In this document: piece by piece, positions 13,849 to 44,431 of the stretch
Numbering within the stretch: position 1 is the stretch's first letter
How the letters are laid out: each line of letters begins with the position of its first letter
Translations under genes and position numbers: made by a program
From: a virus
Virus record (IMG/VR): IMGVR_UViG_3300002143_000123
Coordinates: 1 to 44,431 of that record
Length of the DNA stretch: 44,431 nt
Reading direction: 5' to 3' (one strand)
Notes under the pieces: model-generated
What the model was told of the DNA's origin: nothing
Databases searched by the model: none
What the model saw: the letters and a program-made list of their open reading frames with translations, nothing else

Positions 13849-16800
13849 ATGCACTTCCAAAGAAACATAACAAGAATACAAGATCAAGACGACTTTTCTG
13901 GAGTACCAGCCTCTGGACAAGCCGTTTTTTTTGATGGTGAAAATTTTATCACATCAGATATTTTTGGAAATCAAGGATCACAAGGCGATCAGGGTTCCCA
14001 AGGAAATCAAGGCATTCAAGGAATGATTGGTGTTCAAGGACATCAAGGGCAAATGGGAGAACAGGGTTTCCAAGGAAACCAAGGCGACCAAGGAGATCAA
14101 GGAGAACAGGGTAATCAAGGACCACAAGGGGAACAAGGTTATCAAGGTTATCAAGGTTTTCAAGGGCAACAAGGTTTTCAAGGAAACCAAGGTCAGCAAG
14201 GGTCACAAGGTGATCAAGGTTTTCAAGGAGAACAAGGCGAACAAGGGGATCAAGGATCTCAAGGGGAACAGGGTTTTCAAGGACAAGGTTTTCAAGGTGA
14301 TCAAGGGGAACAAGGTCATCAAGGCAATCAAGGTGAACAGGGCGATCAAGGATTTCAAGGTAATCAAGGATTTCAAGGTAATCAAGGAGATCAAGGTGAA
14401 CAAGGATTCCAAGGAAATCAAGGAGAACAGGGATTTCAAGGTTTTCAAGGAGATCAGGGAAATCAAGGTTCACAGGGTGAACAAGGTTCACAAGGTGATC
14501 AAGGGTTCCAAGGAGAACAAGGTAATCAGGGTGAGCAAGGTTTCCAAGGAGATCAAGGTTTCCAAGGAGATCAAGGTTTTCAAGGTTTTCAAGGTGAACA
14601 AGGGTTTCAAGGAGAACAAGGTTTTCAAGGAAATCAGGGCGAACAAGGTTTCCAAGGCGAACAGGGTGAGCAAGGAGAACAAGGAAATCAAGGAGATCAA
14701 GGAGATCAAGGTTGGCAGGGTGAACAAGGTTCACAAGGAGATCAGGGAAATCAAGGTGATCAAGGATCACAAGGTTATCAGGGATTACAAGGCGATCAAG
14801 GCAATTATGGAAATCAAGGCGACCAAGGATATCAGGGAGCAACTGGTAGCTTTGGCGGTGTAACAGTTGAATATAAAATAGATACAAATAATTATTCAAT
14901 CAACGACCCAGGCGACAACTACATAAGATTTAACAATGCTTCTCTTGCATCAGCTACGCATCTTATAATTGATGATAATCCAAATAATGCAAATATTGAT
15001 TTATCTTTATTCTTAAACACCATAGCTGCTTCAACAAGCACTATGAAAGGTCATTTTAAACTATCTAAGAAAAATGACTCTACAGTATTTGCACTTTACA
15101 CTATAAGCAATTCCTCAGAAGAAGAGCCTAGCTTCTTTGATGTTACAGTTTCTTATTTATCTGGAAGTGGAACATTTTCTAACGATGATGAAGTATTGCT
15201 CACTTTTGCAAGAACTGGTGATAAGGGTGATACTGGCTATCAGGGATATCAAGGAATAAATAGAGGCATATATACTGCTAGTGCTACTGCCCCATCATCT
15301 CCAGATGCTGGTGATATGTGGTTAGATACAACGACAGGCATTATATACATATTTATATATGATGGCGTTACTGGAATTTGGATTCAACCTATTGGATCTA
15401 TAGGGTCACAAGGTTATCAAGGAGTACAAGGTGCTGGTTCTCAAGGAAGTCAGGGCTTGCAGGGGCTACAAGGTCTTCAAGGTTTTCAAGGATATCAAGG
15501 CTTTCAAGGTGACCAAGGTTATCAGGGTTTTCAAGGGCAACAAGGTTATCAGGGCGAACAAGGTGAACAGGGTGGCATAGGATCTCAAGGAAGTTATGGT
15601 GATCAAGGTTATCAGGGAGATCAAGGAGATCAAGGATATCAAGGACATCAAGGATTCCAAGGATCTCAAGGGAATCAAGGTGGACAAGGTGATCAGGGTT
15701 ATCAAGGTGAAGTTCCATTTTCATACATAGGCACTTGGTCTTCATTAACAACATATGTTTTAAATGATGCGGTTACATACCAGGGTTCGTTTTATCAATT
15801 AGTAAACATTGGTGCTTGGTCATTAGGTTCTTCGCCACCAAATAATGGTTGGGCGTTATTGGTGTCTAAAGGGGATCAAGGGAATCAAGGAAATCAAGGT
15901 GAACAAGGTGAACAAGGTGATCAAGGATATCAAGGAAGTCAAGGCAATCAGGGCGTAATAGGCAATCAAGGATTCCAAGGATTCAAAGGTGAACAGGGCG
16001 ATCAAGGCTATCAAGGATATTTTGGTTTACAAGGATCTCAAGGCAGACAAGGCAGACAAGGTGATCAAGGTGATCAAGGATATCAAGGTTATCAGGGTGA
16101 ACAAGGAGAACAAGGAGAACAAGGAAATAGGGGATATCAAGGATATCAAGGACATCAAGGATATCAAGGACATCAAGGAGAACAAGGAGAACAAGGAAAT
16201 AGGGGTAATCAAGGTTACATAGGCTATCAAGGATCTCAAGGAAGACAAGGTACGCAAGGAGAACAGGGAGATCAGGGTTATCAAGGTTTTAGTGGGTATC
16301 AAGGATTGCAAGGAAGACAAGGTTTTCAAGGCTATCAAGGAAATCAAGGTCTTCAAGGAGATCAAGGAGAACAGGGTTTTCAAGGTTTTCAAGGTTTTCA
16401 AGGTATTCAAGGGAACCAAGGAAGCCAAGGTATTCAAGGGCATCAGGGATATCAAGGTTATCAAGGTCAGACAGGATCTGGTGTTAACATTAGAGGTTCT
16501 GACACTTGGGAAAACATATTTAATGTTGAAACTTCTGGTGCTAGTCTTGGCGATGTTTGGATAATTACAGACACTGAACAAGGAACTGCAACAGAAGGAT
16601 GTCCAAACCCATCTGTTGGTATTGCTGCTATTGGTAATGGTTTAGCATACACTGGCAATGCTCCTATCTATTGGAACAATGTTGGCTCTATTAGAGGACC
16701 ACAAGGTTCTCAAGGTATTCAAGGCGTTCAAGGATTTCAAGGCGATCAAGGCAATCAAGGAAATCAAGGAATTATTGGATATCAGGGAGAGCAAGGTTTC

Positions 16801-18237
16801 CAAGGTGTTCAAGGAAGTCAAGGAGATATTGGCTTTCAAGGAAGACAAGGAAATCAAGGTGTTCAAGGATTTGTTGGCGAACAGGGTTATCAAGGTAGAC
16901 AAGGATTACAAGGAATAATTGGGTCTACTGGAACACAAGGTTTTCAAGGATTCCAAGGAACAAATGGAAGTCAAGGGAATCAAGGCGTTCAAGGATCTTT
17001 TGGAAATCAAGGATATCAAGGTGAAACTGGTGGTACTGGATCACAAGGTTCTAGTGGCACAAATGGCTCACAAGGATATCAAGGTTATCAAGGTTTAATT
17101 GGGATTCAAGGAAATCAAGGATTTCAATCTAGCGGATCGGTAACATCTATATCATTATCTGTACCAGCAATATTTAGTCTTTCTGGTTCTCCAGTTACTA
17201 CCGCTGGTGGATTTACAGTAGGTTTAGTTAATCAATTAGCAAATACTATTCTTGCATCACCAAATGGTTCTACTGGTGTTCCGTCTTTTAGGGCTTTAGT
17301 TCCTGATGATGTGCCGACATTAAATCAAAATACTACTGGTACAGCTACAACAGCAATAAATATTTCTGGTGGTGGTGCAGGACAAATTGCATATCAAACT
17401 GGTTCTGGATCAACAGCTATGCTTGCTGCTGGAACTAGTGGGCAAATACTTAAGTCAAATGGTTCTGCTGCTCCAGCTTGGATAAATCAAAATACAATTA
17501 CTGCTGGTGGATTATCATCAACTTTAACTGTTGGCTCTGGTGGAACTGGGCTTACATCTGTTGGAACAAGTGGAAATGTGCTTACAAGTAATGGAACAAA
17601 TTGGGTTAGTTCACCAGCAGCAGTTTCAACCCCAACTGGATCAATAGTTGCTTTCGCTGGTAGCACTGCTCCTGCTGGATGGTTGTTGTGTGATGGTACA
17701 AACACTTATTCTAGAGTTACTTATTCTGCATTATTTATTGTAATTGGAACAACATATAGTGCAGGAAATGGTAGCACATTTGGCGTACCAGATTTAAGAG
17801 GAAGAACAATAATTGGTGTTGGGCAAGGAATTGGCTTAACAAATAGAGGGCTGTCTGTTAAAGTAGGAGCAGAAACTATTACTTTAAATGCTAGTCAAAT
17901 ACCATCACATGTTCATCCTAATGTCGTATATGGTGGTAGTACTGGTGGTATGTCTGCTAATCAAGTGCATTCACACTCTGCGGTTTGGGTTGCTGGTGGA
18001 CAAATAGGAAGAGGGGCATATGGGTTTGGTGGTGGTACTGGTGGTGGTTATCAAGGAAGACTTATAGTTTATGGTGGTTCAGAATATAACCAATACTGTA
18101 CAGTTGGAGATAGCCCTAATATTAATCACTCACACTCATTTAATCCAGCAATAAGCAATGCAAATAATACTGGTGGTGGTTATTCACATGACAATATGCA
18201 ACCAAGTATGGCATTGAACTACATAATAAAAACTTAG
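13849..18237 (+). CDS. Giant collagen-like fibre with C-terminal collar domain
   Basis: A 1,462-residue fibre. Four main collagen-like blocks lie near residues 40-333, 517-621, 674-876 and 950-1092. Nearly every triplet is G-X-Q, with X often D, N, E, F, Y or S and almost no proline, unlike ordinary collagen. They should form trimeric rods. Globular interruptions lie near 335-455, 468-516 (contains DAGDMWLDTTTG), 622-673 (WSSLTTYVLNDAVTYQGSFY, resembling chitin-binding CBM5/12-type modules) and 877-949. The last 200 residues carry a tail-collar-like domain (FAGSTAPAGWLLCDG, then GVPDLRGRTIIG) seen in receptor-binding fibre tips. The start has GGAGA upstream and a late-type element. The attachment site on the virion is unknown. 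Confidence 0.85.
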   Translation: MHFQRNITRIQDQDDFSGVPASGQAVFFDGENFITSDIFGNQGSQGDQGSQGNQGIQGMIGVQGHQGQMGEQGFQGNQGDQGDQGEQGNQGPQGEQGYQGYQGFQGQQGFQGNQGQQGSQGDQGFQGEQGEQGDQGSQGEQGFQGQGFQGDQGEQGHQGNQGEQGDQGFQGNQGFQGNQGDQGEQGFQGNQGEQGFQGFQGDQGNQGSQGEQGSQGDQGFQGEQGNQGEQGFQGDQGFQGDQGFQGFQGEQGFQGEQGFQGNQGEQGFQGEQGEQGEQGNQGDQGDQGWQGEQGSQGDQGNQGDQGSQGYQGLQGDQGNYGNQGDQGYQGATGSFGGVTVEYKIDTNNYSINDPGDNYIRFNNASLASATHLIIDDNPNNANIDLSLFLNTIAASTSTMKGHFKLSKKNDSTVFALYTISNSSEEEPSFFDVTVSYLSGSGTFSNDDEVLLTFARTGDKGDTGYQGYQGINRGIYTASATAPSSPDAGDMWLDTTTGIIYIFIYDGVTGIWIQPIGSIGSQGYQGVQGAGSQGSQGLQGLQGLQGFQGYQGFQGDQGYQGFQGQQGYQGEQGEQGGIGSQGSYGDQGYQGDQGDQGYQGHQGFQGSQGNQGGQGDQGYQGEVPFSYIGTWSSLTTYVLNDAVTYQGSFYQLVNIGAWSLGSSPPNNGWALLVSKGDQGNQGNQGEQGEQGDQGYQGSQGNQGVIGNQGFQGFKGEQGDQGYQGYFGLQGSQGRQGRQGDQGDQGYQGYQGEQGEQGEQGNRGYQGYQGHQGYQGHQGEQGEQGNRGNQGYIGYQGSQGRQGTQGEQGDQGYQGFSGYQGLQGRQGFQGYQGNQGLQGDQGEQGFQGFQGFQGIQGNQGSQGIQGHQGYQGYQGQTGSGVNIRGSDTWENIFNVETSGASLGDVWIITDTEQGTATEGCPNPSVGIAAIGNGLAYTGNAPIYWNNVGSIRGPQGSQGIQGVQGFQGDQGNQGNQGIIGYQGEQGFQGVQGSQGDIGFQGRQGNQGVQGFVGEQGYQGRQGLQGIIGSTGTQGFQGFQGTNGSQGNQGVQGSFGNQGYQGETGGTGSQGSSGTNGSQGYQGYQGLIGIQGNQGFQSSGSVTSISLSVPAIFSLSGSPVTTAGGFTVGLVNQLANTILASPNGSTGVPSFRALVPDDVPTLNQNTTGTATTAINISGGGAGQIAYQTGSGSTAMLAAGTSGQILKSNGSAAPAWINQNTITAGGLSSTLTVGSGGTGLTSVGTSGNVLTSNGTNWVSSPAAVSTPTGSIVAFAGSTAPAGWLLCDGTNTYSRVTYSALFIVIGTTYSAGNGSTFGVPDLRGRTIIGVGQGIGLTNRGLSVKVGAETITLNASQIPSHVHPNVVYGGSTGGMSANQVHSHSAVWVAGGQIGRGAYGFGGGTGGGYQGRLIVYGGSEYNQYCTVGDSPNINHSHSFNPAISNANNTGGGYSHDNMQPSMALNYIIKT
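13966..17125 (+). repeat. Nine-base-periodic DNA coding for G-X-Q triplets
   Basis: Long runs of CAAGGN-type nonanucleotides (CAA GGA NNN) encode the collagen triplets of the first fibre. The DNA repeats are near-identical over long distances, so recombination could change the number of triplets in whole-codon steps. Interruption domains break the run at several places. Confidence 0.8.
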
Positions 18238-18247
18238 GACATATGAT

Positions 18248-19765
18248 ATGCCAATAAATTTTCCTGACGATCCAGAATTAGGTGATATATACACATTTGG
18301 CGAAAGGTCATGGGAATACAATGATATTGGTTGGGTTTCTATAGGTATTCCTGGAGCACAAGGATCTCAAGGAGATCAAGGAAATCAAGGGAACCAAGGT
18401 TTTCAAAGTACTCAAGGGGAGCAAGGGTTTCAAGGTTTTCAAGGAATACAAGGAAGTCAAGGAGAACAAGGTTTTCAAGGCGAGCAAGGAAATCAAGGAG
18501 AGCAAGGAGAGCAAGGTGAAATAGGAACAACTGGATTTCAAGGATTTCAAGGATATCAAGGAACTTATGGAGATCAAGGTTATCAGGGCGATCAAGGCAA
18601 TCAAGGCGATCAAGGAGATCAAGGTGTTTATGGAGATCAAGGCAGTCAAGGTAATCAAGGATTTTATGGAGATCAGGGAGATCAGGGAGATCAAGGTTAT
18701 CAAGGAAATCAAGGAAATCAAGGCGATCAGGGATTTCAAGGATTAAAAGGAGATCAAGGAGATCAAGGAGATCAAGGCACTTTTGGATCACAAGGATTCC
18801 AAGGACACCAAGGCGTTGTTGGAGCTACTGGAAATCAAGGAAATCAAGGATCAAATGGCAGTCAGGGAGATCAAGGAAATAAAGGAGAACAGGGCGATCA
18901 AGGCTATCAAGGATTAGGTGAACAAGGCGAACAAGGTTATAGCGGAAATCAGGGGTATCAAGGAAATCAGGGAGATCAAGGTTATCAAGGCGATGTGGGA
19001 GATGGTTCTGTAATCATAGGTTCTGACAGTTGGCAAAATGTATTCAACAATGAAACTGTTGGGGCCATCTTACATAACATTTGGGTATTAACAGATGTAA
19101 ATCAAGGCACTGCAACATATCCATGTCCTGACCCAAGTGGTCGAGTTGCTGCTATTGGCGATGGTTTAATATACACAGATATTTCTCCTATTTATTGGGA
19201 AAACATTGGGCAAATCAGAGGTCCACAAGGAGATCAGGGAGAACAAGGTCAACAAGGTTTAACTGGGGCAAGGGGATATCAAGGAGAGCAAGGAAATCAG
19301 GGTGTTCAAGGTTTTCAAGGTTATCAAGGCTATGATGGTTTTCAAGGAAGTCAAGGAAGACAAGGTTTTGAAGGAAATCAAGGTAGACAAGGTGTCAAGG
19401 GCGATACTGGAGAGTGTGAATGTGTAATTACAACTCCAGCACCATCAGGATCAGGAGAACAGGGAGAAACAGGACCAACAGGGGCACAAGGTTTTCAAGG
19501 TATTCAAGGCCAAGTTGGTTCGCAGGGATCACAAGGTTTTCAAGGTGTAACTGGAACAGGCAATCAAGGTAACCAAGGTTACCAAGGTGTAACTGGAACA
19601 GGAAACCAAGGTGATCAAGGGCCACAAGGCAATCAGGGAAATCAAGGTTTACAAGGTAGTCAGGGTGACCAAGGGTCACAAGGCAACCAAGGGGAACAAG
19701 GTTCACAAGGTTTAACTGGAACCGCAGACACTATTTTTCTAGCCACTAATTTTGGAGGTTTATAA
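18248..19765 (+). CDS. Second collagen-like G-X-Q fibre
   Basis: A 505-residue fibre that starts 10 bases after the first one. The N-terminus (MPINFPDDPELGDIYTFGER, then WEYNDIGWVSIG) resembles a short attachment motif common in phage fibres. Collagen-like G-X-Q blocks cover about residues 35-252, 325-390 and 405-490. The interruption at about 253-324 (SDSWQNVFNNETVGA, then YPCPDPSGRVAAIGDGLIY) is clearly related to residues 877-949 of the first fibre. A CECVITTPAPSGSG linker near 390 adds a Cys pair that may crosslink the trimer. The C-terminus is short (TIFLATNFGGL) without a collar domain. The ATG follows TTAGGACATATGAT. Probably forms a rod that works with the neighbouring fibre. Confidence 0.8.
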   Translation: MPINFPDDPELGDIYTFGERSWEYNDIGWVSIGIPGAQGSQGDQGNQGNQGFQSTQGEQGFQGFQGIQGSQGEQGFQGEQGNQGEQGEQGEIGTTGFQGFQGYQGTYGDQGYQGDQGNQGDQGDQGVYGDQGSQGNQGFYGDQGDQGDQGYQGNQGNQGDQGFQGLKGDQGDQGDQGTFGSQGFQGHQGVVGATGNQGNQGSNGSQGDQGNKGEQGDQGYQGLGEQGEQGYSGNQGYQGNQGDQGYQGDVGDGSVIIGSDSWQNVFNNETVGAILHNIWVLTDVNQGTATYPCPDPSGRVAAIGDGLIYTDISPIYWENIGQIRGPQGDQGEQGQQGLTGARGYQGEQGNQGVQGFQGYQGYDGFQGSQGRQGFEGNQGRQGVKGDTGECECVITTPAPSGSGEQGETGPTGAQGFQGIQGQVGSQGSQGFQGVTGTGNQGNQGYQGVTGTGNQGDQGPQGNQGNQGLQGSQGDQGSQGNQGEQGSQGLTGTADTIFLATNFGGL

Positions 19766-33653: not shown

Positions 33654-34037
33654 ATGGATGTTGAAAAACAGATGCAAGATGCGTTAAGATTAAGTCAGGA
33701 GGAAAATGAAAAAGGCAAAAAAAAATATCAAACAGATTCAAGAGCTAGGCTTTTTAAAATTACTAGCACAAAAGTTAGGACTGCCTTTATTGGTGCGTTA
33801 TCTTCTTTTGAGCAAAATTTTGGAGAGCTTTGGGGGCATCGCTTGCCAGAAAGTGAATTGACAGACGAACAGTTGGAATGGAAGCAATTATGGGAAGAAT
33901 GTAGAACGGCAGTACTCAATAACGGCAATCATCAAATAAGAGCAGTAGAAAATGAGATGGGCCAGTATTTGATTTCTTGGAATAGACACCAGACTTTTCT
34001 AAAAACAAAGGAGGACAAAGATGAGTGTCAACGATAA
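33654..34037 (+). CDS. Putative tail assembly protein 2
   Basis: A 127-residue charged helical protein (QMQDALRLSQEENEKGKKKY, then RTAFIGALSSFEQNFGELWG). It starts 2 bases after the previous stop and overlaps the next gene by 17 bases. Size and place suggest a small tail assembly chaperone. ATAAGGAGATAAAA lies before its ATG. I found no heptanucleotide slippery site in the overlap, and the next gene has its own strong ribosome site, so frameshifting is not required. Confidence 0.5.
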   Translation: MDVEKQMQDALRLSQEENEKGKKKYQTDSRARLFKITSTKVRTAFIGALSSFEQNFGELWGHRLPESELTDEQLEWKQLWEECRTAVLNNGNHQIRAVENEMGQYLISWNRHQTFLKTKEDKDECQR

Positions 34038-34887
34038 CAAGAAGGTTTTTAAGGTAACTCTTGATAGTAAAGAGATGGAATTGTGCGTAATTCGCCCTAA
34101 TGTCAAACAACGACAAGAGGGGCAGAAGACATACAATAAGGCATTTCGGGATGCAGTCGAATCAGGTGCTATCCTTCGTGCTAAAGTAAACAATGTTATG
34201 CGAGAGCAGAACTTGTGGGATGATAGCAAGGAAGCTCAGTATAAAAAATTAGTTGAAAAAATTAATTCTAATGAAAGAAAGATCAAGTCTGGCGGTATTA
34301 AACTGTCTGAGGCAAAGGACTTAGCACTCCAAATGAAGAAAGACAGGTCTGAACTTAGGTCGCTTACATCTGAGCGTTCTTCGTTAGATTCAAATACTGC
34401 TGAAGGTCAAGCAGATAATGCTCAATTCAACTACTGGGTTAGTGCTTGTACGGTGTATTCAGATACGGGTAAAACTTATTATGCTAATTATGAAGATTAT
34501 CTAAATAGGGATGATGACCCAGTAACTAATCCAGCAGCAAGTAACCTAGCGTTGATGCTGTATAACCTTGATCCAGACTATGAAAAAAAGCTTCCAGAGA
34601 ATGAATTTCTTAAGAAGTATAATTTTGTAGATCAAGACTTGAATTTTGTTAATAAAAGTGGCCACAGGGTTGATTCCGAAGGAAGATTGGTCAACAAAGA
34701 TGGCAGATATATCAATGAAAAAGATGAACTAATTGATATTCATGGCAATCTGGTTGATGAAAAGGGGGAGTATATTGTTGAATTTACTCCATTCTTGGAT
34801 GACGAAGGCAAGCCCTTGGCTGAGAAATCCGAAAAGGTTGAGACAGTTGAAAAGGTTCAAGCAGTTGAGCCTGTCGAAAGTAAGTAA
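34021..34887 (+). CDS. Putative tail assembly protein 3 with short repeats
   Basis: A 288-residue protein. The N-terminal half is helical and charged (RPNVKQRQEGQKTYNKAFRD). Residues about 205-265 contain repeats of a short unit with a Gly turn, such as HRVDSEGRLVNKDGRYINEK and DELIDIHGNLVDEKGEYI, which look like beta-hairpin repeats. The tail has Glu/Val-rich heptads (KVETVEKVQAVEPVESK). The gene has an AAAGGAGG ribosome site just before ATG 34021. It precedes the tape measure gene by about 80 bases and may act as its chaperone; function by context. Confidence 0.5.
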   Translation: MSVNDNKKVFKVTLDSKEMELCVIRPNVKQRQEGQKTYNKAFRDAVESGAILRAKVNNVMREQNLWDDSKEAQYKKLVEKINSNERKIKSGGIKLSEAKDLALQMKKDRSELRSLTSERSSLDSNTAEGQADNAQFNYWVSACTVYSDTGKTYYANYEDYLNRDDDPVTNPAASNLALMLYNLDPDYEKKLPENEFLKKYNFVDQDLNFVNKSGHRVDSEGRLVNKDGRYINEKDELIDIHGNLVDEKGEYIVEFTPFLDDEGKPLAEKSEKVETVEKVQAVEPVESK

Positions 34888-34970: not shown

Positions 34971-37900
34971 ATGGCTTTTAATTTAACGGCACAATTAAGC
35001 GTAGCACTAAATACGGCATCTTTAAAAAATGCTGCTAACACTATCAATAGTCAATTAAAAGATGTTGGTGCAGTATCTTTGGGTATACCAAAAAATGATG
35101 CAGATAGTTTAAAATACATTAGAGTACAAGCAGCAGAAGCTAGTACTGCTATGGAACAGTTTGGTAGACAGTCAGGTTTAGCTGCTAAAAGATTTGTAGC
35201 TTTTACCGTTACTGCTGGAGCTATCATTGCTTTTACATCTTCTCTAAAGCAAGCATTAACTGCTGCTGTAGAGTTTGATCGTGAAATGGTTAGACTAACT
35301 CAGGTTTCTACAGACAGTGTTGGACAAGTTGGTGCTGTGGGTAATGAAGTAAGTAGACTTTCAAAAAATTATGGCGTTTCTAGCAAAGAACTGCTTACAA
35401 CGGCAGTGACATTAAAACAAGCAAACTTAAGTTTAGCGGACACTAAGGTAGCACTTGAAGCATTGGCTCAAGCTGCATTATCCCCAAGTTTTGATAATTT
35501 GAAAGATACTACCGAAGGTGCTATTGCGGTTATGAATCAGTTTAATGTAAGTGCAAAAGACTTGGGTAACGCACTTGGTGCAATCAATGCTGTTGCTGCT
35601 GAATTTGCTGTTGAAGCTCAAGACTTAATTGAAGGTGTTCGTAAAGCTGGTGGTGCTTTTAAAGCTGCTGGTGGTGACTTAAATGAATTTTTAGCATTAT
35701 TCACATCGATTAGGCAAACAACTAGAGAAAGTGCAGAAAGTATTGGAACTGGCCTTAGAACCATATTTACTAGGGTGCAGCGTAATGAAACTGTTGAAGC
35801 ACTTAAGGATATTGGCGTACAGCTAAGATATACGGCAGAAGAAGCTAAATCTGCTGGCGATTTAGGTCTTACAAATCAGTTTGTTGGGCCATATGAGGCT
35901 GTTAAAAGGCTTTCTGGTGCTCTTAATGAGCTTAGATCTACCGATCCAAGGTTTAGTGCCATTATTGAAGAACTTGGTGGATATAGGCAGATCTCCAAGG
36001 TTATACCACTTATTCAAGAGTTTGGTGTCGCACAGAAAGCTTTAGGTATCGCCCAAATAGGTGGTGCTTCTCTTGCTCTAAATGCTGCACAAGCACAAGA
36101 GGCTTTTGGTGTAAAAATACAAAAGGTTAAAGAAGAATTTGCAGATTTTATTAGAAATCTTACTAATACATCTTCGTTTAGATCACTCATAGATTTACTT
36201 CTTGGTGCTGCTTCTGCTGGTATTGCACTTGCCGATTCTTTAAAAGGAATTTTGCCAGTTATAACCGCTATTGCAGCAGTAAAAATCGCTCAAAGCTTGA
36301 CTGGTTTTGCAAAGGGGTTTGGTAGTACGGCTTTTTCTCCTGCACCAGCGGGTCAACCAAGTACATTTTCTCCATTTTTGCCAACTGGGGGAAGAAGAGC
36401 TTCTGGTGGAATAATTAAAATGGCAAAGGGTGGAGTCGTACCAGGAGTTGGTAGGGGCGATAAGGTTCCTGCATTGTTAGAACCAGGTGAATTGGTTATT
36501 CCACGAAGTCGTTTTGCTCCTGGTGGAACAGTATTAGATACTATTAAAAAAACAGGTAAAATAGCATTACATGATTTATATGACACAGAAGCAGTAAAGG
36601 ACAATATTGAAATTGTTGGACAAATAAAAAGGGTTCAATTAGGAAATTATGACAAATATAGAGAAGATTCTCAAAGAATATTAAATGCTGGAAAAGTTGC
36701 TTATCAAAAAGAAATTGATAAATCAAATAATGTGAAAACCGCTACTACAAGAGCCAATAGTGCCGTATCAAAAGCTTTTGGTAAACCTAAGGTTGGCGGA
36801 AGAAAGGGTTTTGTTCCTAAACTTGGAGAAAAGTATTTTCAAGTACCAATAGGTGAAGGCCATAATTCTCAATACAATCAAATTGCTGGTGGATTAGGTG
36901 AAGCTGATACTGCTATGAAAATAAGGCGTGGAGGTTCAAATACAAGTTATCAAAGACTTGGTAATGAACAAGGATTAGATTTTAGGGATGACAAAAATTT
37001 AATTGAAACAAAAGTAACAAAAAAACAGATTCCAGACAAAGAAATTATAGCTAAAGCATTATTGTACCAAGCTTCAATCGCTAAAACAACTTATAAGCAA
37101 GGCAAAGCAGAGACAATTTTTTTAAAAAATTTATCGGTGTACGAATCATTTAAAAAACCACCAACACCAATGGCCATTGGCGGTATAGTCCCAGGAGTTG
37201 GTAACACTGATAGTGTTCCATTAGATTTGCCGATTGGTTCTTATGTAATTAAAAAATCTTCAGTTAACAGTATAGGTGCTTCAAACTTATCTCGACTTGG
37301 AAGGGCTAGTGGTGGGGTTATTCCATCGTTGGTTATGCCAGGAGAATACATCTATACTCCAGATGAAACAAAGCAGATTGGCGTTCACAACTTAAATCAC
37401 ATGAATACGACTGGTAGAAAGAAATTTGCTAGTGGTGGTTATGGAAGTTTAACAAAAGAGGACATAGTAACTGCAAAACAGGTTGAAAGACAACTTAGAA
37501 TACCAACAAGTGCTGCTGGAAAAGATCAAAATAGACAACAGGCAATAGCTGTTGTAGAAGATATGAATAAAGTTAAGAAAGAGGTAGTGGACTTACAAAA
37601 AACAATTGCACCTATAAAAAAAGAAATTGTAGTAGGTATAAAACTAGAAAAACTTTTGAACGAGGAAAAACAAAAGCAAATAAAAACTTTGGCTCAAAAA
37701 GACGCTGAATTAAAAAAGGCAATAAAAGCTGAACAAAAAGATATTAGGGCTGGTAGACCAACCACTGCTTCTACCGCTACTAGAGTAGCAGCAGAACAAG
37801 CTCAAGTTGATGCGACTGCTGACTTAGCAAAAACAAATAAAGGATTAGTAGATGTTAGGAAAAAAATAGGGCAAGACGAACTAAAGAAGTCGAGGATTGA

Positions 37901-40900
37901 AGGTGAAGTTAAAGTATTAAAAAATAAGTATATAAAAAATCCAGATGGAAATATTACAAAAGATGGACAGGTAATAACATCAACTTATGGCAATGCTTAT
38001 AAAAAAGAAATAAGAAAAGAACTTGCTAACTATAAAGCACTTTATGGTGAAGAAGCAACTGGGGGCACTCGTAAAGAAATTAGACAAAATACTGCTCAAA
38101 GATTAAAAGCTGGTTATTTTAATCAAATAAAATCTTTTTCTGAAGCAAGGGGTTTAGGATTTAATGAAGAGTTTGCAAATAAGCAAGCTCAACAAATGGC
38201 TAGGGAAACCGTTGCTGGAAGAAGAAAGTTTCAAGTTTCATCTAAGGGCGAATTTTATGATCCTGCTTTAGCAAACAGATTAAAAAGAGAAGGCTATACA
38301 GAAACAGGAAAAAAGGGATTATACAGAACAAGTAAAAATTTTGTAAAAGGTCTTGTATCTAAGGAAGGTCTTCAGAATAGTTCTTTTGCTGTTAGTAGTG
38401 GTATTGGTCTTTTAGCTTCAGCCATAGGGCCACAAGCAGAAGACTATAAAAAAGCCATTGCTGGTGGAGCACAAGGTGAAGAGATGGTAAAAACTGGTGC
38501 TAAAATTTCTGGTGGCTTAACAGGTGCTGCTACTGGAATGGCAATTGGAAGCTTTGCTGGTCCTGTTGGTATGGCTTTTGGTGCAGTAATTGGTGGAATT
38601 GCTGGTGTAGTATCGGGTATGGTCGATGCTGAAAAACAAATCTCAAGCATAAAATTAGAAGAAGCTGGAAATAAGTTAAAAAATGCTTTTGGAGTTGCTG
38701 CTTCATCATTTGGAAAAATATCACAAGCAAATCTCAATGAAATTACAACCCTTCAATCAAAAATTGATAAAGAAATTTCAACAAAAAGTGCAGCTTCTAC
38801 TACTTTTTTTAGTACAAAGAGTTATGCAAATCAAGAAGCAACAAATACTGCTGTAGAAAGAAGAAATCAATATGCTGCACAAGCTGGTGGCATAAATGCT
38901 CTTTTGTCAAAACAACTTCAAGAAAATATAAAAAGTTCGCCTGTTGTTAGAGATGAGCAAGGGAAAAAGAAACCATATGATATTGAAGGTTTTTTTAAAG
39001 ATAGTGGAAACATAAGTCAGATTGCAAGATTAGCAATTGGCTTAGATCAACCAATAAGCAAGATTAAAAAACAACTTGAAACATTTGCAAAAGATTTTGA
39101 AAAACAACAAAACACTGCTAAAAATCAAGCACAAGCAATTGAGGCAGCACAAAAATTAAGCACAGCATTTTCTCTTATCGCTGATGCTTCAACTAATGCT
39201 GCTAATACGCTCAATAATTTAACACCAGCATTTCAAACTATAGCTGATTCACTATCTTCAAATTTTTCAGTTTCGCAAAAACAAAAAATATCAGGTGAAA
39301 TTCAATTACCTTCTATAGATCCAAAAGCATTTATATCTAACTTAACAAATGTTACTGGTGGTCTTGGATCATCTGGACAAAATTTGCAATCTTCTGGAAC
39401 AGTATTGGCAGAAATGTCTTCATTGCTTCCAAGCATTCTTGCAAGCATAAGACCAAATGATATGGGTAGTGGCAAAGACCCACAATCAGCGTTGCGTAGT
39501 GCTTTAACTGCACAACTAAAGGGTGTTGGAGGTCTTGATGAAACTCAAATACAAAGTTATGTAAATTCAGTGGTTGGAAGAATGGGTGAAGATTTTGCAA
39601 AAATGCTTTCAGAGTCTGGTGGTGATTATAATGAACTTGCAAAAAAATTAATGTCAAATGTTTCTGATCCATTCTTAAATGCTTTTAAGACCATAACAGC
39701 TAACTTAGAAAAAGCAGCAGATGCATATGTTGGTGGAATAAATAAATTAGTGCATTCAACTCTTACGACTGTGCAGGAGTTTGATAAGCTTTCAAAAATT
39801 CAACAGCAAACAAGAAATATCATAACGAATATAGCTATTGAAGATGAGGTAAAAAGACAAAAAAAACCAAGACCATTTTCTGATGTAAATGAAAATGTAA
39901 TAGGTTTGGATATGACAAGTGTCAAAGATCAAACTCAAGCATTCAGAGAACAGCAGAATAGATTAACTGGTGTTGATGCAAAAGGTCAACAATTGACACC
40001 AGATGAAATACAAAAAAGAATAGTAGAAAATAGAGCTAAAACAGAACAGGCACAAACAAAACAAAATAATTCAAAGTTAACTGCTAAAGAAGGCAGGGGC
40101 GATTATGTTGAAGCAACAAATGAATTGGGAAGATTAAAAGTAGAGGCTTCTCTTCTTAATCAGGCTATGAAAAACCTTGCTGATTCAACTCAAGAGATTT
40201 CTGCGATTGAACAAAGAGTTGGAAAAATAAAACAAGAAATAGCAAAAGAAGAACAAGATAATGCAAGAAAACAATCTGAGACAGAAAACCAAGGTGAAAA
40301 ATTATTAACATCATCGCCAGAACAATTACAAAGACTTCAAGCTGGAAGTCAATTAGCAAATGTGGCAAAATCAATTGGTGGAAATCTTCTCAGATTTAAT
40401 ACTGAACAAAGAAAAGCTATTTTTGAATATTTAGATTTTTCTGGAGATGAAGGCAAAAAATTAAAATCTCAGTTTTTACAAGCAAGTGGTTTTGTTTCCA
40501 AACCAGAAAAAGGAATGCAAGATAGGTTTGGTCCACAATTAACTCAATTAAATGCACAACTTCTTGCGGTTATGGCAATAAGAGAACAAGCACAGATAAA
40601 AATAATAAAAGATCAGCAAACTTTGCAGGGTGCATTTTTTACAGAACTATCTGCACAAAATGAAGTTTTCTTTACAAGGCTAGGACAACAATTGTTAATG
40701 CCACAAGTGGCTCAACAACAGCAAATTGGACTTGAAAGCAACGCAAAATTAATAGATATGAGAGCTTCGGCAAAGTCTGTTGGATTATTTGATCCATTAG
40801 ATGCACTTGCTAAACAAAATAATGAGGCTGGTGGTGGTCAAGCCTATTACAACAATCAGATAAAACCAAAAAGTAAAGACATAACTTCTTTCTTAATTGC

Positions 40901-43900
40901 TGAAGAAGAAAGAAAAAAGATAGCAGAATTACAAAAAGATTATGGAAGCGATAGTCCAGCTATAGCAAAGGCAGCTTTGGCTGGTGGTAATCTTGCTGCT
41001 GATTTACCATCGGCACTTGCTACAAATAAAGCTGTCCAAACTACTAAAATTAACTTAAGTGAACTATCTAAAGAAATACAAGCTGCTAATGCTGACAATA
41101 TAGACCCTATCGAATTAACATCATTAATAAGTGCTACTATTGCTAATAAGCTTGCTAATCTTCGAGCAGAACAAGAACAAATTCAAGGTGGTTTAGCTGG
41201 ATCATTAGGTCTTAGTATTACAACCAATAAAAACGGTGATAAAGAACTAGCTAGAGGTCAAGATCCTAATGGCGTTGGTGGTTTTGTAAAGGGTTTAGTG
41301 GATAAAAATGTTACTGGTGCTGCTTTTGCACAAGCTACTGAAGATGTAAAAAGACTTGGTAATGTTATTGGCACACAATTTACTCTTCAAATGGGTGTTC
41401 TTACAGCACAAGCACTACTAGCAACAACACAAATCGCAGCATTAAATATTCAAATAGCAGCTTTAGGACAACCAAAACCTCCAGTGCCAAATGCTCAAAA
41501 TGTAAATCCTTTTGCACCACCACAAGTGGCAAATCCACCAGTTGCACAAAACAATCTTGTTAGACCACAAGGTATACCATTTGCACCAGTTGCACAAAAT
41601 AATGCTCCTGCACAAAATGTAGCATTAGCACAAATAATAATGGCAGCAGCAAATCAACCAAATGGTCTTTTTTTTCAAAATCCAGGAATGGACCCTAATC
41701 AACCACAGCCACTTAAACCAAACGATCCTCTTCTTAGACCACCTGTTGGAAGAAGCACTGGCGGTATGGTAACTCATTCTTCTGCGATGGTTGGTGCAGA
41801 TCCAAAAGTATTTAAGCCAATAGGTCCAGATACAATACCAGCTATGTTAAATCATGGCGAATATGTGGTTAACGCAAAAGCAACATCTGAAAATCTCCCT
41901 TTGCTACAAGCCTTAAATGGCGGTGGAACAGTTAAACCTACAAAAGCAATGAATGATGGCGGTGCTGTTAAATATTTGGCTGGCGGTGCTTTTGTTGGTG
42001 GTCCTGCTGGTGCTGGTGTTGCTGTTAATGCAGTTGAATTAAAAAGAATTATAGATGATGAAAGACAAAGAAGGATTGATCTTGCTATATTACAAAAATT
42101 TGGAAATCTTAGAGGTTCTTGGAGAAGAAATGCTTTAAATAACTCTTTGAGAATACAAGCTGGAGATAGCAATCTTACAAATGTTCCTTATAAAAATGGT
42201 CAGTTTGCTATAAGTGCAATAGTTGCTCCTGGAGTTGATGAGCCTTGGACCCCAATTAAAGATATAACAACCGCAGGATTAAAAACAAGTAATTTAAATC
42301 CACAACAAAAAGAAGCGTTAAATAAAAAACAAATTTTTGGAATGCCATTAAATATTAAACAAGTTCATTATCAGTGGATTACTGGAATTGCAGACAAGTA
42401 CATTCGTGGTGATTTAACTCAAAAACAAAAAATTGATAATTTAAATCAAAATAATCCTAATGCACTTTTTGATGCAGCAAATAAAGATGTGCGAGGAAAT
42501 AGTAGAGAGTACTATAGAAGAAGGGCAAACTTAGATCCATTTTTTCAAGATCTATTAATTTATGGTGGTCCAAATCGAGAGGTTGGAGCAAACAATAGAT
42601 TTGTTGATAAATACGGATTTACTCTTCAAGATGAAAATTTTCCAGTCATAGGTTTTTCTAAGGGCGGTCAAGCTGGTCGTAAAACTCCAGCTATGGTTCA
42701 ATCTGGAGAATTTATTGTTGGTGCAGATAAGGCTAAAAAGAACAAGGGTCTTTTAGATCATATGAATGGTGGGGGCAAGGTTAACTATTTGAGCTTGGGC
42801 GGTGAATCAGATGAGACAAAAAAAACTATACAACCATCACATAAAAAATCAGCATTGGAAATAGCTGACGAGAAAAAAAAAGCTGATAAGTTAGCAACTC
42901 AAAAGTTTTGGGAAAATGCTACTATGGCAGGGTTTATTGCTACTCCTGTTGTTGCTCTTGGTACTGTTATTGGAATTTCAAGATATAGAACTAATCAAAA
43001 AATAGCTGGTTTATTTCCAGACGATGTAGATAAACAAAAAAAATATAGGGAAGGAAGTATACTTGACAGACAGATAATGATTAAAAATTTAAAGTATACT
43101 CAAAAAGGAAAAGATTCAGTAAAAAAATATAATTCTTTTATAGAAAAAACAACTAGCAGAAGTCGAATTGTTGAAGTTGGTAAATCTACTTTTAAAAGTA
43201 TTGGCGATTTTGGTTCAAAATTAAATCCACTTTCTTGGTTTGGCAAATCAGAAAAAATTCCAACATCTTCTTCAAATGACACAATAGACCCAAAATTTCT
43301 TAAAGGTTTTAACGATATCGCATTAGAAAACGCAGCAAAAAATCTAGAATTATCTCCAGAAAAAAGAAAGGCTTATCAAGGTGAGATAGATAGAAGAAGA
43401 GCAGGAAAACCAACTTCAGAAGTTTCAACAAAACCAGTTGTTTCAGCAACAGAAGCTGCCGAAATCGATCAATATGAAAGAGATGCTGATAAATTTAAAC
43501 GAGGCGATGTAGCAAAAGCGAAGGTTCAGAAGGCTATAGACGATGCAAAAAAACAGGGTGTACTAAACAATGAGTTGTCTAAAAAAGATAAGGCTACAGT
43601 TAAAAAAGACATGGCTGGAACAACTGTTTCCCAGTTACAAATAGATGAAAAGACACAAAGAGGAAAAGCAAATAGCTTCTTGCAAGCAGAATTAGATAAA
43701 CAATATGGTCCTACAAAAGAAGAGACAAGAATAAATCAAAAAGGAGAATCTTATACTATAAAAAAAAATAGGTTTGATTCTAAAGGAAATCCGATAAGTA
43801 TTCCGTTTGAAGCAATAGAAAAAATTCAAGCAAGAAACCCTCATCTTTTAGCAAATCAAATTTATAATGAGGGAAGGTCAAATGTTACTAAGGGAGAAGT

Positions 43901-44431
43901 TTTTAATAGGTCTGCAAACGAAGTTCCACTTACGCCAGAATATATTGCTGAAAGAAATGCAAGAATTGCAAAAAATTTAGCAGTTTATCAAAATATAGAA
44001 AGTGTAAAAGCGTTAAGAGCACAAGCACTTTTTGATGCAAATGTAATGCTTCAACAAGAAAGAAATGCAAATATTGCACATCAGCAAGGGCAATTAGATG
44101 CTAGAAGAGCAAGAATAGCAGGAGCACCAGTGGTAGCACCACCAAATGCAGGAGGTGCAGGAGGTGCAGGAGGTGCAGGAGGTGGAAGACAAGTTGTGGT
44201 TGAAAATAAGCCACCAATAGTTCAAGAACTTAAACCACCAGTAGAAACTAAACCAACAGTTAAGCCTAAACTCTATAGAGATCCTTCAACTATAGAAGGT
44301 GGTAATGCTAAACCAGGAGCAAAACCATTAGAGGTAAATCGATTTGGGCATCCAACTGGCGATACTTCAAAACCAAATAAACCAGTAGTGCCACCTTCAA
44401 CTAAACCAACAGTAACGCCACCAGTGGTAAC
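34971..44431 (+). CDS. Tape measure protein, 3' end beyond window
   Basis: An open reading frame of at least 3,153 codons that runs off the right edge, translated by me from ATG 34971 (GGGGTG upstream). The N-terminal 300 residues match TP901/lambda-type tape measures (AVEFDREMVRLTQVSTDSVG, GVSSKELLTTAVTLKQANLS, TRESAESIGTGLRTIFTRVQ). A motif GGxVPGxGxxDxVPAxLxPGExVI recurs with variants near 36390, 37170, 37307, 41758, 41958 and 42655. Residues about 605-720 resemble a PD-(D/E)XK nuclease (D670, E679, K681). Residues about 1150-1225 are a Gly-rich membrane-like stretch. Coiled coils follow. It sets tail length and is expelled with DNA. Confidence 0.9.
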   Translation, partial: MAFNLTAQLSVALNTASLKNAANTINSQLKDVGAVSLGIPKNDADSLKYIRVQAAEASTAMEQFGRQSGLAAKRFVAFTVTAGAIIAFTSSLKQALTAAVEFDREMVRLTQVSTDSVGQVGAVGNEVSRLSKNYGVSSKELLTTAVTLKQANLSLADTKVALEALAQAALSPSFDNLKDTTEGAIAVMNQFNVSAKDLGNALGAINAVAAEFAVEAQDLIEGVRKAGGAFKAAGGDLNEFLALFTSIRQTTRESAESIGTGLRTIFTRVQRNETVEALKDIGVQLRYTAEEAKSAGDLGLTNQFVGPYEAVKRLSGALNELRSTDPRFSAIIEELGGYRQISKVIPLIQEFGVAQKALGIAQIGGASLALNAAQAQEAFGVKIQKVKEEFADFIRNLTNTSSFRSLIDLLLGAASAGIALADSLKGILPVITAIAAVKIAQSLTGFAKGFGSTAFSPAPAGQPSTFSPFLPTGGRRASGGIIKMAKGGVVPGVGRGDKVPALLEPGELVIPRSRFAPGGTVLDTIKKTGKIALHDLYDTEAVKDNIEIVGQIKRVQLGNYDKYREDSQRILNAGKVAYQKEIDKSNNVKTATTRANSAVSKAFGKPKVGGRKGFVPKLGEKYFQVPIGEGHNSQYNQIAGGLGEADTAMKIRRGGSNTSYQRLGNEQGLDFRDDKNLIETKVTKKQIPDKEIIAKALLYQASIAKTTYKQGKAETIFLKNLSVYESFKKPPTPMAIGGIVPGVGNTDSVPLDLPIGSYVIKKSSVNSIGASNLSRLGRASGGVIPSLVMPGEYIYTPDETKQIGVHNLNHMNTTGRKKFASGGYGSLTKEDIVTAKQVERQLRIPTSAAGKDQNRQQAIAVVEDMNKVKKEVVDLQKTIAPIKKEIVVGIKLEKLLNEEKQKQIKTLAQKDAELKKAIKAEQKDIRAGRPTTASTATRVAAEQAQVDATADLAKTNKGLVDVRKKIGQDELKKSRIEGEVKVLKNKYIKNPDGNITKDGQVITSTYGNAYKKEIRKELANYKALYGEEATGGTRKEIRQNTAQRLKAGYFNQIKSFSEARGLGFNEEFANKQAQQMARETVAGRRKFQVSSKGEFYDPALANRLKREGYTETGKKGLYRTSKNFVKGLVSKEGLQNSSFAVSSGIGLLASAIGPQAEDYKKAIAGGAQGEEMVKTGAKISGGLTGAATGMAIGSFAGPVGMAFGAVIGGIAGVVSGMVDAEKQISSIKLEEAGNKLKNAFGVAASSFGKISQANLNEITTLQSKIDKEISTKSAASTTFFSTKSYANQEATNTAVERRNQYAAQAGGINALLSKQLQENIKSSPVVRDEQGKKKPYDIEGFFKDSGNISQIARLAIGLDQPISKIKKQLETFAKDFEKQQNTAKNQAQAIEAAQKLSTAFSLIADASTNAANTLNNLTPAFQTIADSLSSNFSVSQKQKISGEIQLPSIDPKAFISNLTNVTGGLGSSGQNLQSSGTVLAEMSSLLPSILASIRPNDMGSGKDPQSALRSALTAQLKGVGGLDETQIQSYVNSVVGRMGEDFAKMLSESGGDYNELAKKLMSNVSDPFLNAFKTITANLEKAADAYVGGINKLVHSTLTTVQEFDKLSKIQQQTRNIITNIAIEDEVKRQKKPRPFSDVNENVIGLDMTSVKDQTQAFREQQNRLTGVDAKGQQLTPDEIQKRIVENRAKTEQAQTKQNNSKLTAKEGRGDYVEATNELGRLKVEASLLNQAMKNLADSTQEISAIEQRVGKIKQEIAKEEQDNARKQSETENQGEKLLTSSPEQLQRLQAGSQLANVAKSIGGNLLRFNTEQRKAIFEYLDFSGDEGKKLKSQFLQASGFVSKPEKGMQDRFGPQLTQLNAQLLAVMAIREQAQIKIIKDQQTLQGAFFTELSAQNEVFFTRLGQQLLMPQVAQQQQIGLESNAKLIDMRASAKSVGLFDPLDALAKQNNEAGGGQAYYNNQIKPKSKDITSFLIAEEERKKIAELQKDYGSDSPAIAKAALAGGNLAADLPSALATNKAVQTTKINLSELSKEIQAANADNIDPIELTSLISATIANKLANLRAEQEQIQGGLAGSLGLSITTNKNGDKELARGQDPNGVGGFVKGLVDKNVTGAAFAQATEDVKRLGNVIGTQFTLQMGVLTAQALLATTQIAALNIQIAALGQPKPPVPNAQNVNPFAPPQVANPPVAQNNLVRPQGIPFAPVAQNNAPAQNVALAQIIMAAANQPNGLFFQNPGMDPNQPQPLKPNDPLLRPPVGRSTGGMVTHSSAMVGADPKVFKPIGPDTIPAMLNHGEYVVNAKATSENLPLLQALNGGGTVKPTKAMNDGGAVKYLAGGAFVGGPAGAGVAVNAVELKRIIDDERQRRIDLAILQKFGNLRGSWRRNALNNSLRIQAGDSNLTNVPYKNGQFAISAIVAPGVDEPWTPIKDITTAGLKTSNLNPQQKEALNKKQIFGMPLNIKQVHYQWITGIADKYIRGDLTQKQKIDNLNQNNPNALFDAANKDVRGNSREYYRRRANLDPFFQDLLIYGGPNREVGANNRFVDKYGFTLQDENFPVIGFSKGGQAGRKTPAMVQSGEFIVGADKAKKNKGLLDHMNGGGKVNYLSLGGESDETKKTIQPSHKKSALEIADEKKKADKLATQKFWENATMAGFIATPVVALGTVIGISRYRTNQKIAGLFPDDVDKQKKYREGSILDRQIMIKNLKYTQKGKDSVKKYNSFIEKTTSRSRIVEVGKSTFKSIGDFGSKLNPLSWFGKSEKIPTSSSNDTIDPKFLKGFNDIALENAAKNLELSPEKRKAYQGEIDRRRAGKPTSEVSTKPVVSATEAAEIDQYERDADKFKRGDVAKAKVQKAIDDAKKQGVLNNELSKKDKATVKKDMAGTTVSQLQIDEKTQRGKANSFLQAELDKQYGPTKEETRINQKGESYTIKKNRFDSKGNPISIPFEAIEKIQARNPHLLANQIYNEGRSNVTKGEVFNRSANEVPLTPEYIAERNARIAKNLAVYQNIESVKALRAQALFDANVMLQQERNANIAHQQGQLDARRARIAGAPVVAPPNAGGAGGAGGAGGGRQVVVENKPPIVQELKPPVETKPTVKPKLYRDPSTIEGGNAKPGAKPLEVNRFGHPTGDTSKPNKPVVPPSTKPTVTPPVV
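36783..37160 (+). other. PD-(D/E)XK-like nuclease domain inside the tape measure
   Basis: About 125 residues between two GG-VPG motifs. The segment GEADTAMKIRRGG supplies E644, EQGLDFRDDKNLIETKV supplies D670, E679 and K681 with the spacing D-x8-E-x-K, followed by a helix (KEIIAKALLYQASIAK). This is the order of the PD-(D/E)XK core. Structure was not modelled; the call is by motif. Confidence 0.5.
42020..42660 (+). other. Unrecognised folded domain in the tape measure
   Basis: About 210 residues between two Gly-rich motifs (GGPAGAG before, GFSKGG after). It includes VELKRIIDDERQRRIDLAIL, FGNLRGSWRRNALNNSLRI, then VHYQWITGIADKYIRGDLTQ and REYYRRRANLDPFFQDLLIY. It appears globular and distinct from the surrounding coiled coils. 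Domain family unknown. Confidence 0.4.
44151..44186 (+). repeat. Nine-base tandem repeat in the tape measure
   Basis: Three copies of GGAGGTGCA plus a fourth diverged copy encode a Gly-Gly-Ala hinge. It precedes a Pro/Lys/Val-rich region that runs to the window end. Confidence 0.8.

Follow-up and report, generated by a model that had tools for sequence, protein, structure and literature searches.

An exchangeable cassette with a predicted PD-(D/E)XK-type nuclease domain in a phage tape measure protein, a candidate virion-borne effector

The MuF polymorphic toxins of temperate phages combine a constant virion protein with variable effector-type modules whose delivery on infection has been proposed (PMC5576092). 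Phages and conjugative elements also encode polyvalent proteins, which are very large, virion-associated, multi-enzyme proteins predicted to be injected, with domains including ADP-ribosyltransferases, metallopeptidases, and nucleases; the study that described them relates them to proteins of the head and portal and to MuF, and nowhere uses the word “tape” (PMC5512222). Enzymatic domains are also present within tape measure proteins (TMPs), e.g., the peptidoglycan hydrolase domains of the SPbeta YomI type. Finally, the DNase effector Tde1 of the type VI secretion system (T6SS) joins a DNase domain to a glycine zipper that is common to TMPs and is required for Tde1 entry into target cells (PMC10240207). 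Here, we analyzed a TMP encoded by the IMG/VR virus record IMGVR_UViG_3300002143_000123, examined over its full 44,431 nucleotides (hereafter “the window”; the TMP gene and the features within it lie on the + strand), in which an exchangeable cassette contains a predicted PD-(D/E)XK-type nuclease domain.

By analogy, the best reading of this cassette system is that of a known kind, exchangeable effectors carried by the virion, here with the tail tape measure as a new chassis. As in MuF toxins, the TMP family of the window combines a constant virion part with variable effector-type modules exchanged by recombination, but MuF toxins sit at the C-terminus of a head protein, whereas the protein described here is a tail protein with internal cassettes between linkers, and no immunity gene was seen adjoining the TMP in three relatives. 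From polyvalent proteins, the present case differs in having a tape measure as chassis and in the swapping of single cassettes among related phages. The peptidoglycan hydrolase domains of other TMPs target the cell wall, whereas the domain in the window is assigned by its predicted fold to a DNA-cutting superfamily, and Tde1 differs in its nuclease family (Ntox15) and in belonging to a bacterial secretion system. We found no description of exchangeable effectors on a tail tape measure in the open-access literature, which does not by itself prove priority.

The TMP gene (34971..44429) encodes 3153 visible residues, and its open reading frame (ORF) is still open at the window end, truncated by the end of the virus record. 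A PHROG profile search assigned this ORF to the tail length tape measure proteins (PHROG 4211, E 7e-27). A search with its conserved N-terminal domain (residues 1–484, 34971..36422) retrieved five records with 93–95% identity over these residues. Relative to L004, L005, and L025 (L-numbers label TMP relatives; L025 is the same record as L006, and L003 and L008 have the same contents), identity dropped from 90–100% to 6–24% over residues 534–733, and returned to 92–94% from residue 734. This drop delineates an exchangeable cassette at residues 512–735 (36504..37175), with borders that are sharp in the comparison with close relatives. The cassette of L003/L008 is 59% identical to that of the window, L005/L006 carry a different type, and L004 carries a third one, 35% identical to that of L005, while a D...E-x-K pattern can be read in all cassette types of the close relatives. 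Between close relatives, the cassette is swapped as one unit in a fixed slot between linker modules. An earlier note on this DNA, made from the sequence alone, had proposed a nuclease-like cassette at residues 605–730: a cassette is indeed present, and the exchangeable unit is longer. Its N-terminal half (residues 512–630, 36504..36860), predicted to be mostly helical in a low-confidence model, is retained only in L003/L008-type cassettes.

Between the window and L003, dN/dS reached 0.63 in the cassette vs 0.14 in the flank, with dS values of 0.52 and 0.165, respectively; for L005 vs L025, dN/dS was 0.49 in the cassette and 0.14 in the flank. By these rates, the cassette is maintained as a protein yet diversifies faster than its flanks, and the cassette alleles seem older than the flanks, matching the expectation for swapped alleles. 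Surveying mosaicism among phage proteins, a 2023 study could confirm no genuine recent case in tape measures (PMC10684548); the window, L003, L004, L005, and L025 are such cases. Scanning IMG/VR with the cassette as a single query protein returned no relative, because the cassettes of close relatives differ or have diverged. Likewise, tblastn searches against 50,697 phage records retrieved no matches to the L005, L010, and L023 types, while those to the window type were at chance level, and a scan of genome contigs returned 13 contigs from metagenome-assembled genomes, mostly short, with no host found.

The slot is framed by linker module 1 (GGVVPGVGRGDKVPALLEPGELVIP, residues 487–511, 36429..36503) and linker module 2 (GGIVPGVGNTDSVPLDLPIGSYVIKKSSV, residues 737–765, 37179..37265), with GG-VPG motifs beginning at residues 487 and 737; a half module (GGVIPSLVMPGEYIY, residues 781–795, 37311..37355) comes after module 2, in relatives as well. 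The linker consensus, GGxVPGxGxxDxVPAxLxPGExV, is near-invariant across 58 TMPs, and cassettes are located between these modules. The two motifs had been taken as brackets of an inserted cassette, and the near-identical flanks around different cassettes in relatives strongly support such an insertion, but the motifs do not mark this insertion alone. GG-VPG is a recurrent TMP linker module. It was found in 173 records of a phage collection, including TMPs of cultured Gordonia, Mycobacterium, and Rhodococcus phages, and as GGxVPGxGxxDTVPAMLTPGEFV in SSM2_012 of Synechococcus phage S-SM2, a T4-like cyanophage protein close to baseplate genes. The nuclease cassette was not found in the cultured module-bearing TMPs and tail proteins (S-SM2, Nitrincola 1M3-16, Zirinka, Gardann).

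Within the cassette, conservation, a core model, and Foldseek matches place the PD-(D/E)XK-type domain core at residues 631–731 (36861..37163). The reading frame and the residues E644 (36900..36902), D670 (36978..36980), and E679-T-K681 (37005..37013, K681 starting at 37011) are as given in the earlier note, which had recognized a PD-(D/E)XK signature in them. The residues and their spacing are correct, but D-x8-E-x-K alone is at chance level, with two occurrences in the window TMP vs 0.75 expected from shuffled sequences, so that the significance of the motif rests on its conservation in relatives. An iterated profile detected the domain in 16 of 63 non-redundant TMPs, always at the same site; in the window, the residue spacing is E-x25-D-x8-E-x-K. 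All 16 carriers retain E644 in helix 1, D670 on a strand, and an additional lysine overlooked in the note, K695 (37053..37055), in the helix that follows the E-x-K strand. On that strand, E679 is conserved in 14 carriers and replaced by D in another, and K681 is found in 15, the single exception (L037) being misaligned. Reversed-sequence controls of the iterated search gave best E-values of 0.09–0.26, and borderline carriers need caution because the control for the last profile reached 0.0058.

Conservation was also apparent from an unconstrained MAFFT alignment of ten trimmed cassettes, which contained exactly six invariant columns: G640, E644, D670, E679, K681, and K695. Four of these ten cassettes had been identified via a profile of the other six, and those six were recruited by their TMP flanks and not by the motif. 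Cassettes with identity down to 13% still keep the active-site set, while 80% of the remaining positions change. A profile–profile comparison (hhalign) of the window and L005 types aligned the D, the ExK, and the following K with an E-value of 0.0018, albeit at a probability of only 15%.

AlphaFold modeling of the domain core with ten homologous sequences predicted an alpha-beta-beta-beta-alpha-beta arrangement (pLDDT 72, pTM 0.60). In model numbering, this consists of a helix at 3–23 (E644), short strands near 31 and 41 (D670), a strand at 47–52 (E679, K681), a helix at 59–78 (K695), and a strand at 91–96. The element order and residue placement in this model correspond to the PD-(D/E)XK superfamily pattern, with the conserved D and (D/E)-x-K on adjoining strands and an acidic residue in helix 1. 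A model of the full cassette was weak (pLDDT 50) and showed a similar element order. About half of the top 20 Foldseek matches in the PDB were PD-(D/E)XK members (Hjc resolvases, DdmD, SPARDA, I-Ssp6803I), and viral matches included several restriction endonucleases, a Holliday resolvase, a VRR-NUC, and a PD(D/E)XK protein, none of them individually significant. Both the modeling and the alignment of related TMPs thus agree with the fold first proposed for this segment and with the conservation of D670, E679, and K681, to which E644 and K695 can be added. Compared to archaeal Hjc, I-Ssp6803I, and the nuclease domain of DdmD, the domain shares the predicted core order, the helix-1 acid, the D strand, and the E-x-K on the next strand; it differs by being embedded in a TMP, by having no significant sequence match to a curated family, and by its extra invariant lysine (K695) in the next helix.

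Other TMPs carry other domains in the same slot. From a profile scan of IMG/VR yielding 460 TMP relatives, of which 80 were kept, we identified an ADP-ribosyltransferase exoenzyme in the slot of three members (best E 3e-16, with L093 above the curated Pfam cut-off) and DnaJ domains in three (E 1e-5 and 5e-6). Metallopeptidase-like (zincin-like), SNase-like, and HAD-like domains were indicated by a weak match or a motif only; the SNase-like and HAD-like labels, based on motifs with Pfam E-values of 0.02–0.05 or none, are leads only. One relative (L040) has a sub-threshold match to the polyvalent-protein domain LPD1 (E 0.002), and no LPD domain was found in the window. Relatives can carry several domain types per TMP, some of them motif-only, and one domain could be assigned in the window TMP. 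In L042–L044, module 2 immediately follows the N-terminal domain, leaving an apparently empty slot. When mapped onto an N-terminal-domain tree of the TMPs, the presence of the ExK-type cassette requires 8 changes, ≥6 of which are forced by well-supported branches, and nearly identical N-terminal domains are associated with different cassettes in L095/L096, as well as in L027, L029, L030, L031, L032, and L048, a case of recent exchange. A recurring cassette that starts with THFTH-x-D and includes NWNLDW, present in L027, L031, L007, and L093, is common to several TMP clades. A second nuclease-like cassette group (GxxFE...FDF...DAK; L051, L053, L079, L084, L086, L090, and L092) is possibly another PD-(D/E)XK branch at the motif level.

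TMPs line the tail and exit ahead of the DNA. We consider it fairly probable that the TMP bears, in this cassette, a PD-(D/E)XK nuclease that acts as an effector and enters the host together with the TMP; for catalysis, delivery, and target, we infer the following course. The TMP would exit the tail before the phage DNA and traverse the envelope, perhaps via a glycine-zipper segment, after which the cassette would fold or become exposed in the periplasm or cytoplasm and cleave DNA there. Candidate targets would be the host chromosome, a resident plasmid, a prophage, or the genome of a competitor, while the phage’s own DNA would be spared through sequence specificity or modification. The fast divergence and swapping of cassettes may then reflect an arms race with host defenses or competitors. 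Indirect support for host entry and DNA cutting comes from the effector-type enzymes sharing the slot, from a glycine-zipper-like stretch in the window TMP (residues about 1181–1216, 38511..38618; Pfam Gly-zipper_Omp E 7e-4, under the curated cut-off), which is a candidate membrane-channel element, and from the position of the lambda TMP at the inner membrane, where it contacts ManYZ during injection and is labeled by ManZ-linked TurboID (PMC13190303). A C5 cytosine DNA methylase (PF00145, lowest E 1e-54) is encoded in records G001, G002, G005, and G008 with these TMPs, and is present in both largest close relatives; it could underlie self-sparing. No support was obtained for self-protection via N6/N4 or Dam-type methylases or via thymidylate synthase; the C5 methylase alone was found.

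Several observations weigh against a nuclease effector. Domain profile searches (Pfam, PHROGs, NCBIfam, PADLOC, PDB) gave no significant nuclease match, model confidence is moderate, and Foldseek matches had a best E-value of 0.09, TM-scores of ~0.4, and none with E < 0.05. In the L003, L005, and L025 relatives, the stretch from the TMP gene to the conserved genes that follow it contained no dedicated immunity gene, although one could lie elsewhere, and the C5 methylase may instead be an ordinary anti-restriction enzyme. The DnaJ and unassigned domains in the slot imply that cassettes need not all be toxins, and all close relatives are uncultured.

More broadly, we see an even chance that TMPs constitute an unrecognized class of polymorphic effector carriers, in which a single slot following the N-terminal domain and flanked by GGxVPG modules would hold interchangeable enzymes, i.e., PD-(D/E)XK nucleases, ADP-ribosyltransferases, peptidases, and DnaJ domains, that enter the host with the tail protein ejected first, ahead of the phage DNA. 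An exchangeable domain with a full catalytic residue set makes TMP action inside the host, beyond DNA guidance, directly testable. If such delivery is true, the injected effectors of a phage could be read from its TMP in any genome scan.

The cassette could alternatively be an inert decoy, i.e., a folded, non-catalytic domain whose variability reflects escape from TMP-recognizing defenses or host-receptor choice. The SNIPE defense recognizes TMPs, with TMP changes conferring escape (PMC13190303), and the fast evolution of the cassette (dN/dS 0.5–0.6) would fit such a role. However, all active-site acids and lysines remain invariant amid the extensive change at other positions, and simple escape does not require replacement by other complete enzymes, so that we regard a decoy as rather unlikely.

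We deem two further explanations improbable, to a similar degree. In the first, a homing-type mobile nuclease, the cassette would be a selfish element that cleaves TMP genes lacking a cassette and inserts its own copy there, while the virion gains nothing. This reading would be in line with the scattered cassette distribution, the apparently empty slots of L042–L044, and the best-superposed named PDB match, the PD-(D/E)XK homing endonuclease I-Ssp6803I (probability 0.87, rmsd 3.0). Homing nucleases are usually free-standing or found within introns or inteins, however, while the cassette lies in frame within a protein and has neither an intron nor intein-like ends (its terminus is ...TPMA, not HN, without a following C/S/T), and the slot also houses enzymes unable to home (ADP-ribosyltransferase, DnaJ). 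An intein or intron was itself rejected, as the insert ends lack the corresponding splice signals and the reading frame is uninterrupted. In the second explanation, the domain would act on phage DNA as a Holliday-resolvase-like, structure-specific nuclease, processing either the incoming DNA end or recombination intermediates. While archaeal Hjc resolvases were the commonest PDB matches, such a housekeeping role would be expected to be retained, yet many TMPs are without the domain at this site and have unrelated enzymes, and cassette diversity inside one TMP clade is unexpected for a core function. Lastly, a chance motif within a coiled-coil tape measure, to which the near-random frequency of the bare D-x8-E-x-K might point, is hardly credible and is contradicted by residue conservation across highly divergent cassettes and by the fold prediction.

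The full-length TMPs of the nearest relatives, obtained by joining L118/L119/L120 to L003/L025/L005, reach ~4,980–5,100 residues, which to our knowledge is among the longest for TMPs. At 0.15 nm per residue, this would correspond to a tail of ~750 nm, unless cassettes do not add to its length. More variable blocks are also found in the window TMP at residues 2184–2284 and past 2634, and the C-terminal half of the TMP includes zincin-like HExxH motifs in L005 and L025. Immediately upstream of the TMP gene, an overlapping ORF pair (33654–34037 and 34021–34887) occupies the usual site of tail assembly chaperones, for which a frameshift is often used. Further upstream, two collagen-like tail fiber genes form an adjoining pair (13849–18237 and 18248–19765).
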